From Caldilineaceae bacterium (GTDB lineage: Bacteria; Chloroflexota; Anaerolineae; Caldilineales; Caldilineaceae), in NCBI GenBank assembly GCA_012032975.1, contig JAAUPU010000275.1, positions 1 to 5,427 on the forward strand: 5,427 nucleotides of DNA, in the 5' to 3' direction. A model generated the notes under the pieces. That model saw only the letters and a list, made by a program, of their open reading frames with translations. It had not been told where the DNA came from and made no database searches. The position numbers and the translations under genes are program-made. Each line of letters starts with the position of its first letter. Position 1 is the first letter of the stretch. Shown piece by piece: positions 1,707 through 5,173 of the stretch.

Positions 1707-1741
1707 AGAATCGGGCTCTCTGAAGTTTTGTGTGGTCGACC

Positions 1742-1763
1742 GCCACCGAATCAATTCGGTGGC
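1742..1763. repeat. Hairpin 1 of the array (9-bp stem, TCAA loop)
   Basis: Arms GCCACCGAA and TTCGGTGGC are perfectly complementary around the loop TCAA. The inner part GAATCAATTC is 9/10 identical to the inner part of hairpin 4. Confidence 0.75.
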
Positions 1764-1773
1764 TGACATGGGA

Positions 1774-1791
1774 AACCCGCTTCAGCGGGTT
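1774..1791. repeat. Hairpin 2 of the array (7-bp stem, TTCA loop)
   Basis: Arms AACCCGC and GCGGGTT pair perfectly around TTCA. The left arm directly abuts GGGA (1770-1773), which can pair with TCCC right after hairpin 3. Confidence 0.75.
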
Positions 1792-1807
1792 GACGCTCGA
1801 CGTTGAC

Positions 1808-1825
1808 AACGTGCTTTAGCACGTT
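1808..1825. repeat. Hairpin 3 of the array (7-bp stem, TTTA loop)
   Basis: Arms AACGTGC and GCACGTT pair perfectly around TTTA. The right arm directly abuts TCCC (1826-1829). Confidence 0.75.
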
Positions 1826-1836
1826 TCCCGTAGCAG

Positions 1837-1856
1837 GCGGCGAATGAATTCGCCGC
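1837..1856. repeat. Hairpin 4 of the array (8-bp stem, TGAA loop)
   Basis: Arms GCGGCGAA and TTCGCCGC pair perfectly around TGAA. The GCAATTGC palindrome (1866-1873) lies just downstream, next to the right terminal repeat. Confidence 0.75.
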
Positions 1857-1938
1857 TGCCGCCCGGCAATTGCTCAGAGAGCAGCATGATCACAGCGCTG
1901 CTTGATAGGTGTCAATCGTAATTTCAAGCCATCTATGC

Positions 1939-2358: not shown

Positions 2359-3147
2359 ATGACCTACACAGTTCCATTCTCAGAACTCAACAAAGCCGAC
2401 ATCCCCACTGCCGGCGGCAAAGGCGCGAATCTGGGTGAGATGACCGCGGCGGGCTTTCCCGTGCCCGCGGGCTTCGTGCTGACTACGGAAGCCTATGATG
2501 CCTTTGTGCAGGCGCATGGCCTGCAACAACAGATCGTCGATCTGGCACTCAAGGCGGCGACAGACGATCCGCAATCCAACGAAGCGGCCGCGCAGAAGAT
2601 TCGCGCCTTATTCATGCAGGGCGAAATTGAGAGGGATTTGGCGACCGAGATCACAACCGCCTATCAAACGTTGACGCAGAACGGCGACTCTTCGACAAGC
2701 TCGGACCACCGCAATGCCGTTGCCGTGCGCTCTTCCGCGACGGCCGAAGACCTGCCGGACGCAAGTTTTGCCGGACAACAGGATACCTTTCTCAATATTC
2801 AGGGGGAAGACGCGTTGCTGGAAGCAGTGAAGCAATGCTGGGCCAGTCTGTGGACCGCGCGCGCCATGGCCTATCGGCTGCGCCAGGGGATTGACCCGGC
2901 AAGTGTCAGCCTGGCTGTGGTCGTGCAGAAGCTCGTTGCCGCCACTTCGGCAAGCTCAGTGCAGGCTCTATCTTCCGGCATTCTCTTCACCGCCAATCCG
3001 GTCAACGGCGAGCGCGACCAAATTCTCATCAATGCAACGTGGGGCCTGGGCGAGGCGATTGTGGGCGGGCTGGTGACGCCCGACAGCGTAGTTGTCGATA
3101 AAACAACCCACAAAATCCTCTCTCGCGAGACTGCCGCTAAACCATGA
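2359..3147 (+). CDS. PEP synthase / rifampin phosphotransferase-like dikinase, ATP-grasp part
   Basis: First of three pieces of one gene (2359-5173; about 938 residues if both frameshifts are repaired). ATG 2359 follows AAAAGGA (2345-2351) by seven bases. The 262-residue piece is the PPDK_N ATP-grasp domain: G-G-K-G-A-N-L-G-E-M (19-28, nucleotide-contacting Lys21), P-A-G-F-V-L-T-T (36-43), V-R-S-S-A-T-A-E-D-L (123-132), A-G-Q-Q (138-141), S-G-I-L-F-T-A-N-P (206-214) and W-G-L-G-E-A-I-V-G-G, then the frame is lost at A-K-P. Family enzymes use ATP to phosphorylate a mobile-domain His and pass the phosphate to pyruvate or another acceptor, releasing AMP and Pi. Two loops carry extra residues (about 109-117 and 195-204) encoded by copies of a short repeat. 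The TGA (3145-3147) overlaps the next ATG as ATGA. Frame loss may be mutation, assembly error or a genuine gene split. Confidence 0.85.
   Translation: MTYTVPFSELNKADIPTAGGKGANLGEMTAAGFPVPAGFVLTTEAYDAFVQAHGLQQQIVDLALKAATDDPQSNEAAAQKIRALFMQGEIERDLATEITTAYQTLTQNGDSSTSSDHRNAVAVRSSATAEDLPDASFAGQQDTFLNIQGEDALLEAVKQCWASLWTARAMAYRLRQGIDPASVSLAVVVQKLVAATSASSVQALSSGILFTANPVNGERDQILINATWGLGEAIVGGLVTPDSVVVDKTTHKILSRETAAKP
2690..2702 (+). repeat. Short dispersed repeat within dikinase gene, copy 1
   Basis: CTTCGACAAGCTC differs from copy 2 (2945-2957) at one of 13 positions. It encodes part of an extra Ser-rich loop (residues 110-116) just before the conserved V-A-V-R-S-S. Confidence 0.5.
2943..2961 (+). 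repeat. Short dispersed repeat within dikinase gene, copy 2
   Basis: The core CTTCGGCAAGCTC (2945-2957) matches copy 1 at 12 of 13 positions; the segment is bounded by CACT and AGTG. It encodes extra residues about 195-204, placed between V-V-V-Q-K-L-V and S-S-G-I-L-F, which are adjacent in typical relatives. Confidence 0.55.
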
Positions 3148-4946
3148 TGACGGTGCGGACGGCGATGGGGACAGAAGAGCAAGCCGTTCCGCCGGCGCAG
3201 CAAGGTCAACCTGTATTGGATGACGCAACAGCCCTCGCCTTAACCCGTTACGGCGCACAAATCGAATCGCATTACCATATGCCAATGGACATCGAATGGG
3301 CCATTGCCGACGGTGAGATCGCCATCCTACAGGCAAGACCCATTACCTCTCTGCCGGCCGCTCCGCTGAAAAATGTCGTGTGGGAACCGCCCACGCCCAA
3401 TACGGCCTGGATGCGCCGCCAAATTGTCGAACACATGCCCGAACCGCTCTCGCCGCTCTTTGAAGACCTCTATCTGAAAGAGGGAATGATTGTCACGCTG
3501 AACGACTTGCTCGTCTCTTTGGGGTCTGTCGCCGATGTTCGCTTCGATCTTGCGGCATCATGGCCGCAAGGATTTGCCGACACGATCAACGGCTATGCCT
3601 ACACGACCTCGACCGTCAATCTAAATGCGCAAACTATCAAGGCGGTTTTGAAGGTCTATCCGCGCATCTTCAGAATGCTCAAAATGCCCGCCTTTGATTG
3701 GGAAGGGCATGTGTTGCCCAACTATCAAGCCCTGATTGCGCGCTGGGGTGCGCTTGATTTGGATTCTGCCGAATCGACCGCCCTCCTGCAAGGCATCGGC
3801 GAAATGGCGGCCGCCGACAGTGGATATTGGTTTGGCTCCGCCGCCTATTTGGGGCTTTCACGATTCTTAGACTCCGTTTTCGACAAGCTGCTGAAGACGG
3901 TCTTCCGCGCTGGATTGCCGCAAACCGGTTTGGGCAGTTCCGCCTTTTTGCGCGGCTTCGACTCCAAAGCGCTCGATGCCCAAGCCGACATGGAGCGCAT
4001 CGCCGACGCCATCCGCGCATCCGGCTCCCTGCGCGATCTCGTTCTCAACACGTCCGCCAATCAACTGCAAACCGCCCTCGCCAACCATCCCGACGGGCAA
4101 CCTGTGCTGGAGAGCATCAACGCCTACATCGCGGCCTATGGTCATCAAATCTACAACCTCGATTTTGTCGCGCCGACACAGGGGGAAGAGCCGCAGCCCA
4201 TCTTCCTGAGCCTCAAGGCGTTGGTCAAAAATGCGCCCGCGCAACCCGTGCGGGAGCGACAGGCGCAGATGGCGGCCGAGCGGGATGCGCTCGTCGCACA
4301 GACGGCGCAGGCCCTCAATCCCGCCTCGCGCCGCTTGTTTGCGTGGGTCTGGAAATGGACAAAACAGTTTGGCCCTTATCGTGAACACGTCATGTTCTAC
4401 ATGGGCGCGGCGTGGCCGACGGTTCGCAAGCTGGCCCATGAACTGGGACAACGGCTGACGAGAGCGGGCGTCATCGCCCAGCCTGACGACATTTACTATC
4501 TAAAAAGCAGCGAGATCGAGGCGGCATTCAACGCAGGGGAGAACGGGTCTACACTCAATCTTGCAGACCGAGTGCAAGAACGACGCGATCTGCGCGAGAG
4601 TCGCAAACTGCTCACGCCACAGTCCAAAGTGCCCAAACAGTCCGCCATTGCAATCGGGCCGTTTAAGCTCACCATGTTTGAGCCGACGCCATCCGACGCC
4701 GCCGAAAACGACGGTCCCGTCTTGGCCGGTTACGCCGTCAGCACCGGGCGCGTGACCGCCCCGGCCAGCGTCATTCGCTCGACGGCAGATTTTGACAAGA
4801 TGGAGGACGGATCGATTCTCGTCTGCACGACAACGACTCCGGCGTGGACGCCGCTCTTTTCGCAGGCCGTCGGCCTGGTCACCGATGTCGGCGGCGCGCT
4901 GGCCCATGGTTCCATCGTGGCGCGGGAATACGCATCCCCGCGGTGA
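3144..4946 (+). CDS. PEP synthase / rifampin phosphotransferase-like dikinase, central part and phospho-His
   Basis: This 600-residue piece continues the ATP-grasp domain immediately: M-T-V-R-T (2-6), P-V-L-D-D (23-27), M-D-I-E-W (48-52) and Q-A-R-P-I-T (63-68), which closes the nucleotide domain. Residues about 70-510 are the central acceptor-associated region, starting W-E-P-P-T-P-N-T-A-W. From about 525 comes the PEP-utilizers mobile domain: L-A-G-Y-A-V-S-T-G-R-V, T-T-P-A-W-T-P-L-F and G-G-A-L-A-H-G-S-I-V-A-R-E-Y, with catalytic His588 (codon 4905-4907). The 'AHG' setting and 'PAWTPLF' resemble rifampin phosphotransferases (RPH) more than PpsA, whose box is usually 'TCHAA'. The acceptor is unknown and resistance should not be assumed. 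The frame breaks five codons after A-R-E-Y, where family members read 'GIPAV'; that sequence continues in another frame. Adding one base near 3143 and one near 4932 restores a single protein. Confidence 0.85.
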   Translation: MMTVRTAMGTEEQAVPPAQQGQPVLDDATALALTRYGAQIESHYHMPMDIEWAIADGEIAILQARPITSLPAAPLKNVVWEPPTPNTAWMRRQIVEHMPEPLSPLFEDLYLKEGMIVTLNDLLVSLGSVADVRFDLAASWPQGFADTINGYAYTTSTVNLNAQTIKAVLKVYPRIFRMLKMPAFDWEGHVLPNYQALIARWGALDLDSAESTALLQGIGEMAAADSGYWFGSAAYLGLSRFLDSVFDKLLKTVFRAGLPQTGLGSSAFLRGFDSKALDAQADMERIADAIRASGSLRDLVLNTSANQLQTALANHPDGQPVLESINAYIAAYGHQIYNLDFVAPTQGEEPQPIFLSLKALVKNAPAQPVRERQAQMAAERDALVAQTAQALNPASRRLFAWVWKWTKQFGPYREHVMFYMGAAWPTVRKLAHELGQRLTRAGVIAQPDDIYYLKSSEIEAAFNAGENGSTLNLADRVQERRDLRESRKLLTPQSKVPKQSAIAIGPFKLTMFEPTPSDAAENDGPVLAGYAVSTGRVTAPASVIRSTADFDKMEDGSILVCTTTTPAWTPLFSQAVGLVTDVGGALAHGSIVAREYASPR

Positions 4947-5173
4947 TGGGGACCGGCGTGGCGACCGAACGCATCAAACCGGGCATGATGCTGACGGTGG
5001 ATGGAGATGCAGGCACGGTGACCTTGCTTGATGAGGAGGACGCAACGACAGGGGAAGCAGCACTGGCCCCGCCCGCAGCGACAGGGCGCAAGAAGATCGC
5101 GACGGCGTTGGTTGTCGGAATCGCCGCGTTTATCATCTGGCGTAGGCGACGCCGTCGCCGTAACGGGGAATGA
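4946..5173 (+). CDS. Dikinase C-terminal end: His-domain rest, linker, hydrophobic segment, Arg tail
   Basis: Third piece of the dikinase. Homology resumes in this frame from about 4934 (I-P-A-V-M-G-T-G), upstream of the first usable ATG at 4946; started there it gives 75 residues. It completes the phospho-His domain with G-V-A-T-E-R-I-K-P-G and V-D-G-D-A-G-T-V-T-L-L. An acidic then Ala/Pro-rich linker follows, then K-K, a 15-residue hydrophobic run (I-A-T-A-L-V-V-G-I-A-A-F-I-I-W), seven consecutive Arg (codons 5141-5161) and N-G-E. Ordinary PpsA and RPH proteins end at the His domain, so the tail is an addition. It could peripherally anchor the enzyme to the membrane, although 15 residues is short for a full span. 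The ATG at 4946 overlaps the previous stop as TGATG. Independent expression is possible but a broken single gene is the simpler reading. Confidence 0.6.
   Translation: MGTGVATERIKPGMMLTVDGDAGTVTLLDEEDATTGEAALAPPAATGRKKIATALVVGIAAFIIWRRRRRRRNGE

Follow-up and report, generated by a model that had tools for sequence, protein, structure and literature searches.

Genetic organization of the window

The DNA analysed here, referred to as the window, is a stretch of 5,427 nucleotides from a Caldilineaceae bacterium (Chloroflexota). A gene encoding a SAM-dependent methyltransferase (LCM, PF04072/TIGR00027) is located at positions 816-1706 of its plus strand, and a gene encoding a GIY-YIG nuclease of 130 amino acids (PF01541), which we named P0001, is located at positions 1950-2342 of the same strand. 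Between them lies a 168-bp array of hairpins (1715-1882), which starts 8 nt past the stop codon of the methyltransferase gene and ends 67 nt ahead of the start of the nuclease gene.

Four relatives of the methyltransferase (47-65% identity) are assigned to Bacteroidales, Flavobacteriaceae, Flavobacteriales and Proteobacteria, a distribution that suggests lateral transfer. We considered whether the array belongs to the methyltransferase gene and rejected this: none of these four relatives, which are from other phyla and one of which (L002) has a 3′ flank of only ~790 nt, has a perfect hairpin (arm ≥8) close 3′ of the gene. Beyond the nuclease gene, a PEP-synthase-like gene (2359-5173) is broken into at least two frames. 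Its PPDK_N match is divided between two ORFs (2359-3147 and 3144-4946), and its mobile domain is interrupted near position 4946; this gene is either a pseudogene or affected by sequencing errors.

In excerpts of PMC3733652, CGTC-type REPs are described as having a CGTC or TGTC tag that abuts a stem of 8-9 bp opening with A/T pairs, and a CCA-like tail. Two sequences in the 3′-terminal part of the nuclease gene show the tag, stem, loop and tail of this description. One is located at 2248-2274 on the minus strand (palindrome 2251-2270; stem ACCCCTGC/GCAGGGGT), and the other, in the opposite orientation, at 2307-2333 on the plus strand (palindrome 2311-2330; stem ATTCCTGC/GCAGGAAT); each has a TGTC tag, an 8-bp stem, a 4-nt loop and a CCA tail. 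Since the reading frame of the nuclease crosses both REPs, its C-terminal tail is REP-encoded, as is the case for several relatives. Thirteen of the 120 nuclease proteins listed, the window's included, carry a terminal extension of at least eight residues, a cut-off that we set ourselves (four N-terminal and nine C-terminal), and eight of these 13 (three N- and five C-terminal, the window's own among them) contain a REP-encoded peptide pattern, as defined by a regular expression that was also ours. The named relatives among the 120 are from Caldilineaceae, Anaerolineaceae, Ardenticatenaceae and Chloroflexi/Chloroflexota, or are recorded as “bacterium”. Patterns of P0001 had no match in IMG/VR, and P0001 had none among the PDB sequences at E ≤ 0.001.

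The hairpin at 2311-2330 has the form ATTCC...GGAAT, in which it resembles the consensus of dRS3 of Neisseria. CGTC-1 elements in Neisseriae have been equated with dRS3 (PMC3733652, excerpts); the difference is that the window comes from Chloroflexota, outside the five phyla listed there for CGTC repeats.

The array is built from a two-hairpin unit in two inverted copies

A first-pass annotation, based on the letters of the DNA, had described the array as four perfect hairpins enclosed by an outer 9-bp stem, and this description proved to be accurate. The left terminal repeat (GCTCTCTGA, 1715-1723) and the right one (TCAGAGAGC, 1874-1882) are exactly where they had been placed and are perfectly complementary. 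The hairpins between them, which all have 2-nt centres, are arranged in the order A1-B1-B2-A2. A1 (1742-1763) has 10-bp arms and the apex GAAT-CA-ATTC, and its inverted partner A2 (1837-1856) has 9-bp arms and the apex GAAT-GA-ATTC. B1 (1774-1791) and its inverted partner B2 (1808-1825) have 8-bp arms, with the apices GCT-TC-AGC and GCT-TT-AGC, respectively; B1 is assigned to the minus strand, on which a CGTC tag abuts its stem, and B2 to the plus strand. A GTAG tetranucleotide on the plus strand (1830-1833), 3 nt ahead of A2, is possibly a degenerate REP tag in a non-canonical position.

Half-to-half alignment revealed that the 168 bp are two inverted copies of one two-hairpin unit around position 1799, i.e., an imperfect palindrome with terminal inverted repeats. 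With the left half reverse-complemented, both halves read hairpin B (AAC..GCT-NN-AGC..GTT), TCCC plus 7 nt, hairpin A (..CGAAT-NN-ATTCG..) and, outward of hairpin A, 17-19 nt followed by TCAGAGAGC. The halves and their spacers align in register with a local score of 21, compared with a mean of 8.5 and a maximum of 17.5 for shuffled sequences (0 of 1000 shuffles equalled it). The similarity stops at the terminal repeat, whose centre (1798.5) is at most 1.5 nt away from the centres of the hairpin pairs (1799-1800). A longer inverted repeat, of 10 bp (1650-1659/1855-1864), lies outside this symmetry.

Twelve of the 17 half-to-half stem pairs are identical and five are double-changed (two from B1 to B2, and three from A1 to A2), with no one-sided change and no broken pair, although the hairpins were picked for being perfect, so that paired changes are partly expected. 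Seven of the 15 unpaired positions differ between the halves. The equal spacing, the conserved apices and the conserved TCCC/CAG linkers argue for a common descent of the two halves.

Chance expectations and folding of the array

The region 1707-1934 contains four perfect hairpins (arm ≥8, loop 2-8), while in 1000 dinucleotide shuffles of it the mean was 0.03 and no shuffle had more than one. The outer repeat behaved differently: a 9-bp inverted repeat spaced by at least 50 bp arose in 112 of 2000 shuffles of 1707-1934, and in 442 of 2000 when the test was extended over 1600-2000. By itself, therefore, the outer repeat is weak evidence, within chance. When the flanks were shuffled 200,000 times (mononucleotide shuffling), a 9-bp repeat in register with the hairpin centres arose 100 times, and one in any register 482 times, in a post hoc test that was picked after the symmetry had been noticed.

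The array had been called a sealed, discrete unit rather than random intergenic DNA, and this is correct because of the palindrome, with its inverted two-hairpin copies, and not because of the 9 bp. A random cluster of hairpins in intergenic DNA rich in G+C would suffice for the outer repeat taken alone, but is scarcely credible as an origin of the four perfect hairpins and of their inverted, compensated symmetry.

Folded as RNA, the array gave z-scores of -5.5 for the plus strand and -5.4 for the minus strand, and on neither strand were any of 200 shuffles as good. The near-equality of these scores is due to the palindromic symmetry, and hence a coding strand is not indicated. Covariation between the units does not distinguish between RNA and single-stranded DNA, and so is no proof of a structured RNA when taken alone. 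The first-pass annotation had offered a structured RNA as one of two readings. As a transcribed element, the array would be the 3′ UTR of the methyltransferase mRNA or the 5′ leader of the nuclease mRNA, with a stabilizing or regulating role; its strong fold on both strands and its position close behind the first of two co-directional genes would agree with this. We consider it unlikely, because the array had no match at the gathering score in Rfam 15 (a lax search gave only matches far below threshold), no intrinsic terminator was called inside it, and perfect hairpins (arm ≥8) are absent close behind the genes of all four methyltransferase relatives mentioned above. The structured RNA thus gained no specific support.

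Comparison with known classes of repeats

REPs are very common bacterial repeats, and those of the GTAG type have RAYT transposases, whose genes are often, though not in every case, located near the repeats. Stems of mostly 6-13 bp and loops often of 2-3 nt are described for GTAG-REPs (PMC3733652, excerpts), and the array, with its 8-10 bp arms and 2-nt centres, has these sizes. What it lacks is a GTAG abutting a stem: the tetranucleotide near A2 is displaced, has no counterpart in the left unit and is on the strand with the opposite apex; in the canonical copies in IMG/VR, GTAG abuts the stem. Read on the minus strand, B1 resembles a CGTC-REP, as it has a CGTC tag, an AA.../...TT stem and then TCCCA. 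No CGTC tag abuts B2, A1 or A2, and thus one of the four hairpins of the array is tagged.

According to excerpts of PMC3733652, a predominant setting of REPs is 3′ of a coding region and between same-strand genes, as for the array, and heterodimers and structured spacers have been described for them. The array resembles the REP dimers, or BIMEs, of the GTAG and CGTC super-families (PMC3733652, excerpts) in its short stem-loops with 2-4 nt centres, its inverted pairs, its heterodimers with unlike stems, its structured spacers and its place 3′ of a coding region. It differs from them in that each half holds two unlike hairpins and most hairpins break the tag rule. No RAYT or transposase domain was detected in the six ORFs of the window that were scanned.

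The RIME of Sinorhizobium (attributed to Osteras 1995) is said to be an intergenic composite of several palindromes, a feature that it would share with the array; the S. meliloti set has three hairpins instead of the four of the array. RIME elements of Sinorhizobium are cited in PMC2245857 (excerpts). As an element, the array is probably a variant of the REP/BIME/RIME type, in a symmetric double-unit design with compensated stems.

Searches for further copies of the array

Using blastn, no copy of the array was found on plasmids; four records contained one weak piece each of ~46-48 bp (E 0.2-0.6). The plasmid of Thermomicrobium roseum did not contain a copy either (best E 0.25). Nor was a copy found in 398 genomes taken as Pseudomonadota and 198 taken as Bacteroidota, in scans in which at most two and four candidates were scored per genome among the matches listed, so that weak copies could escape. 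The seven short matches at E ≤ 0.001 in these genomes all fall inside open reading frames 331-571 codons long. No match was obtained with a peptide read from the array.

In IMG/VR, the two patterns compatible with the two-hairpin unit of the array gave zero matches; two further patterns with zero matches do not fit the element and are uninformative. The stem of B2 alone was present in 15 IMG/VR stretches, with no array resembling 1715-1882. That of B1 alone was present in 91, four of which had a second hairpin with a 2-nt centre within ~150 bp, none of them array-like. The A-type apex GGCGAATNNATTCGCC was present in at least 120 IMG/VR stretches. Inverted pairs of A-type hairpins with an abutting GTAG, that is, REP-like dimers, were found among the matches listed (L040, L047, L059, L107, L113, L121, L129 and L133), with a varied partner stem in some of them, and most other GGCGAATNNATTCGCC stretches among these matches have a lone hairpin. 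The dimer of L059 had no match on plasmids. On two IMG/VR contigs (L037 and L080), A-type hairpins are 2016 bp apart and might mark the two termini of an insertion element.

The first-pass annotation had also proposed a non-autonomous mobile element, and for 1715-1882 this is plausible. One form of it would be a MITE of an ordinary DDE transposon with the 9-bp terminal inverted repeats as its bounds. The array does have such repeats, in register with the internal symmetry, and a length of 168 bp is typical for MITEs. Inspection by eye of the sequence directly beyond the ends of the array showed no target-site duplication, no second copy was found on the plasmids or in the 398 and 198 genomes, and the compensated internal hairpins would be unexpected in a MITE, which makes this origin quite unlikely.

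GIY-YIG nuclease genes are often flanked by matching palindromes

With P0001 as query, matches at E ≤ 1e-15 were obtained in 52 of 249 genomes (taken as Pseudomonadota), at 95 places, and 90 of these (L247-L336) were analysed. We screened the 400 bp on each flank for perfect palindromes (arm ≥7, loop 2-6), and palindromes were scored as matching when their first 7 nt had at most one mismatch. Palindromes were present within 400 bp at 69 of the 90 nuclease loci, and at 16 of 40 stretches located ~20 kb away on the same contigs. Matching palindromes on both flanks were present at 32 of the 90 loci and at none of the 40 shifted stretches. A further control, 400 kb drawn from 15 of these genomes, yielded matching flanks for 1 of 1260 tiles and for none of 287 ORFs (80 codons or longer); among 64 ORFs that are at least 80 bp away from both neighbours, there was likewise none. 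The genomes are mutually related, so the Fisher significance of these contrasts is overstated. A matched pair is absent from 58 of the 90 loci, and 21 have no perfect hairpin (arm ≥7) within 400 bp. A directly abutting GTC was found for 94 of 184 near palindromes; among the 196 other palindromes at these loci, it was found for 30. In the window, the arms of the array hairpins differ from those of the downstream CGTC-REPs, and the nuclease gene therefore has no matched flanking pair. Downstream of the GIY-YIG gene of another genome, G065, there is a hairpin array with GCTNNAGC apices.

The palindrome ACCCCGGANNNNNTCCGGGGT occurs in 7 of the 249 genomes; the six with at least three copies (3-38) are all nuclease-positive, and the seventh has one copy and no nuclease. 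The ATTCCCGC palindrome was found in 20 of the 52 genomes with a P0001-like match and in 38 of the 197 without one (E ≤ 1e-15), and thus ATTCCCGCNNNNGCGGGAAT, which is commoner than ACCCCGGANNNNNTCCGGGGT and has these numbers with and without the gene, is only loosely linked to it. Nine of the 38 match-less genomes were checked: three (G093, G085 and G094) have a small GIY-YIG frame, five have UvrC-sized frames only, and one has none.

The palindrome labels require 28 changes on a tree comprising 55 nucleases, against a mean of 39.3 after shuffling, with 0 of 200 shuffles as low; the labels were set by hand for 56 of the 90 loci, and the tree is built on few columns and has many open forks. 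Labels that cluster strongly include GTCCCTGCG, ATGCCAGC, ACCCGGAATC, CCCTCGGG and ATTCCCG, while 7 of the 13 label groups listed, ACCCCGGA included, do not cluster at all. For 22 of 50 nucleases, the nearest nuclease in another genome has the same label (5.1 expected). A nuclease of another genome with the same palindrome is closer than the differently labelled paralogue from the own genome in 16 of 24 cases, and the reverse applies to 8 of 24. Paralogues within one genome (e.g., G163 and G204) can bear different palindromes that follow the protein lineage. Palindrome identity thus appears to follow the nuclease lineage in part.

Six named plasmid loci, out of 34 plasmid records, were analysed, of which three have palindromes that match on both sides, two have them on one side and one has none. 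On Azospirillum lipoferum AZO_p3 (L429, 1357-1975), the GIY-YIG gene, together with its flanking ATCCCCGC palindromes, separates sufB from sufC, as if inserted into an operon. On Sinorhizobium meliloti pSymB (L392, 862-1863), a three-palindrome array, probably RIME elements as we presume, is present three times upstream and in part once downstream of the GIY-YIG gene. The GIY-YIG gene of Planktothrix agardhii plasmid p1 (L391) lies between genes annotated as an MmeI-like restriction enzyme and DISARM DrmA, and has no perfect palindromes (arm ≥7) nearby.

A RAYT gene flanked by its own REPs is called a REPtron (PMC3733652, excerpts). Many GIY-YIG loci are similar, as a small nuclease gene is located between copies of a palindrome that partly tracks the protein lineage. 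The differences are that the enzyme is of the GIY-YIG type and not an HUH tyrosine transposase, and that the window lacks the matched flanks.

Discussion

The 168 bp are probably a non-coding palindromic mosaic of the REP/BIME/RIME class, namely a REP-like heterodimer of two-hairpin units. This assignment is favoured by the symmetry of the array, the stem-preserving double changes, the position 3′ of a coding region between same-strand genes, the GTAG-tagged A-type pairs in IMG/VR, and the hairpin arrays beside the GIY-YIG genes of S. meliloti and G065. Against it are the lack of a second copy in the searched data, the displaced GTAG, the CGTC tag on a single hairpin, the lack of a transposase domain in the six ORFs and the unmatched flanks of the nuclease gene. 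As a REP-class element, the array would be a dispersed repeat in its own genome.

Such an element would fold into hairpins once single-stranded, during replication or in RNA. Its spread, past or present, may have occurred through hairpins of single-stranded DNA and a trans-acting nuclease that cuts them; this nuclease might be a RAYT-type enzyme encoded elsewhere in the genome or the GIY-YIG enzyme. The differences between the stems of the two halves might spare the element from long-hairpin cleavage. An escape of this kind has been suggested for heterodimers (PMC3733652, excerpts), and it would explain why the stems are kept in each half yet the halves have diverged.

By association, the neighbouring GIY-YIG nuclease is a candidate for the enzyme, and the array may belong to one system with the nuclease and the CGTC-REPs. 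The array would then be the Chloroflexota form of a repeat handled by the adjoining nuclease, both making up one mobile module. We regard this as a tentative possibility, to which the contrast in matched flanks between nuclease loci and controls, the CGTC tag abutting B1 and the multi-hairpin arrays that S. meliloti and G065 have next to such genes all lend weight, but which is at odds with array stems unlike those of the downstream CGTC-REPs and with three of the four hairpins lacking the tag. Given the mismatch between the upstream array and the downstream REPs, the array could just as well be a REP-like element of unrelated origin that came to lie by the nuclease gene. A rival reading of such GIY-YIG genes is that they might serve in phage defence, which has been raised for two Caulobacter GIY-YIG genes in a source whose excerpts do not discuss repeats (PMC10688885).

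For CGTC repeats, excerpts of PMC3733652 report no associated transposase genes, which makes the GIY-YIG family a testable candidate. The text of PMC3733652 contains no mention of GIY-YIG. No link between single-domain GIY-YIG nucleases and CGTC-type REPs was found among the PMC papers listed for GIY-YIG, most of them judged by title and the start of the abstract; in excerpts of PMC9465073, a RAYT and a GIY-YIG protein appear in one gene list, unlinked to each other. Our broadest proposal, which we put forward as rather doubtful, is that single-domain GIY-YIG nucleases could be the missing enzymes of CGTC-REPs: each lineage would recognize its own palindrome and cut it as a hairpin, thereby moving the repeat and its own gene, and the 168-bp palindrome would be the Chloroflexota form of this system, or its parasite.

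The association of P0001-like genes with matching flanking palindromes, seen in genomes taken as Pseudomonadota, is strong, and the neighbouring GIY-YIG gene may outweigh the array in importance. If dispersed, the array would extend the range of REP heterodimers by a symmetric design of double units whose stems are compensated. With a nuclease family that far exceeds the controls in lying between matching, often GTC-tagged palindromes, the mover of CGTC REPs becomes testable.
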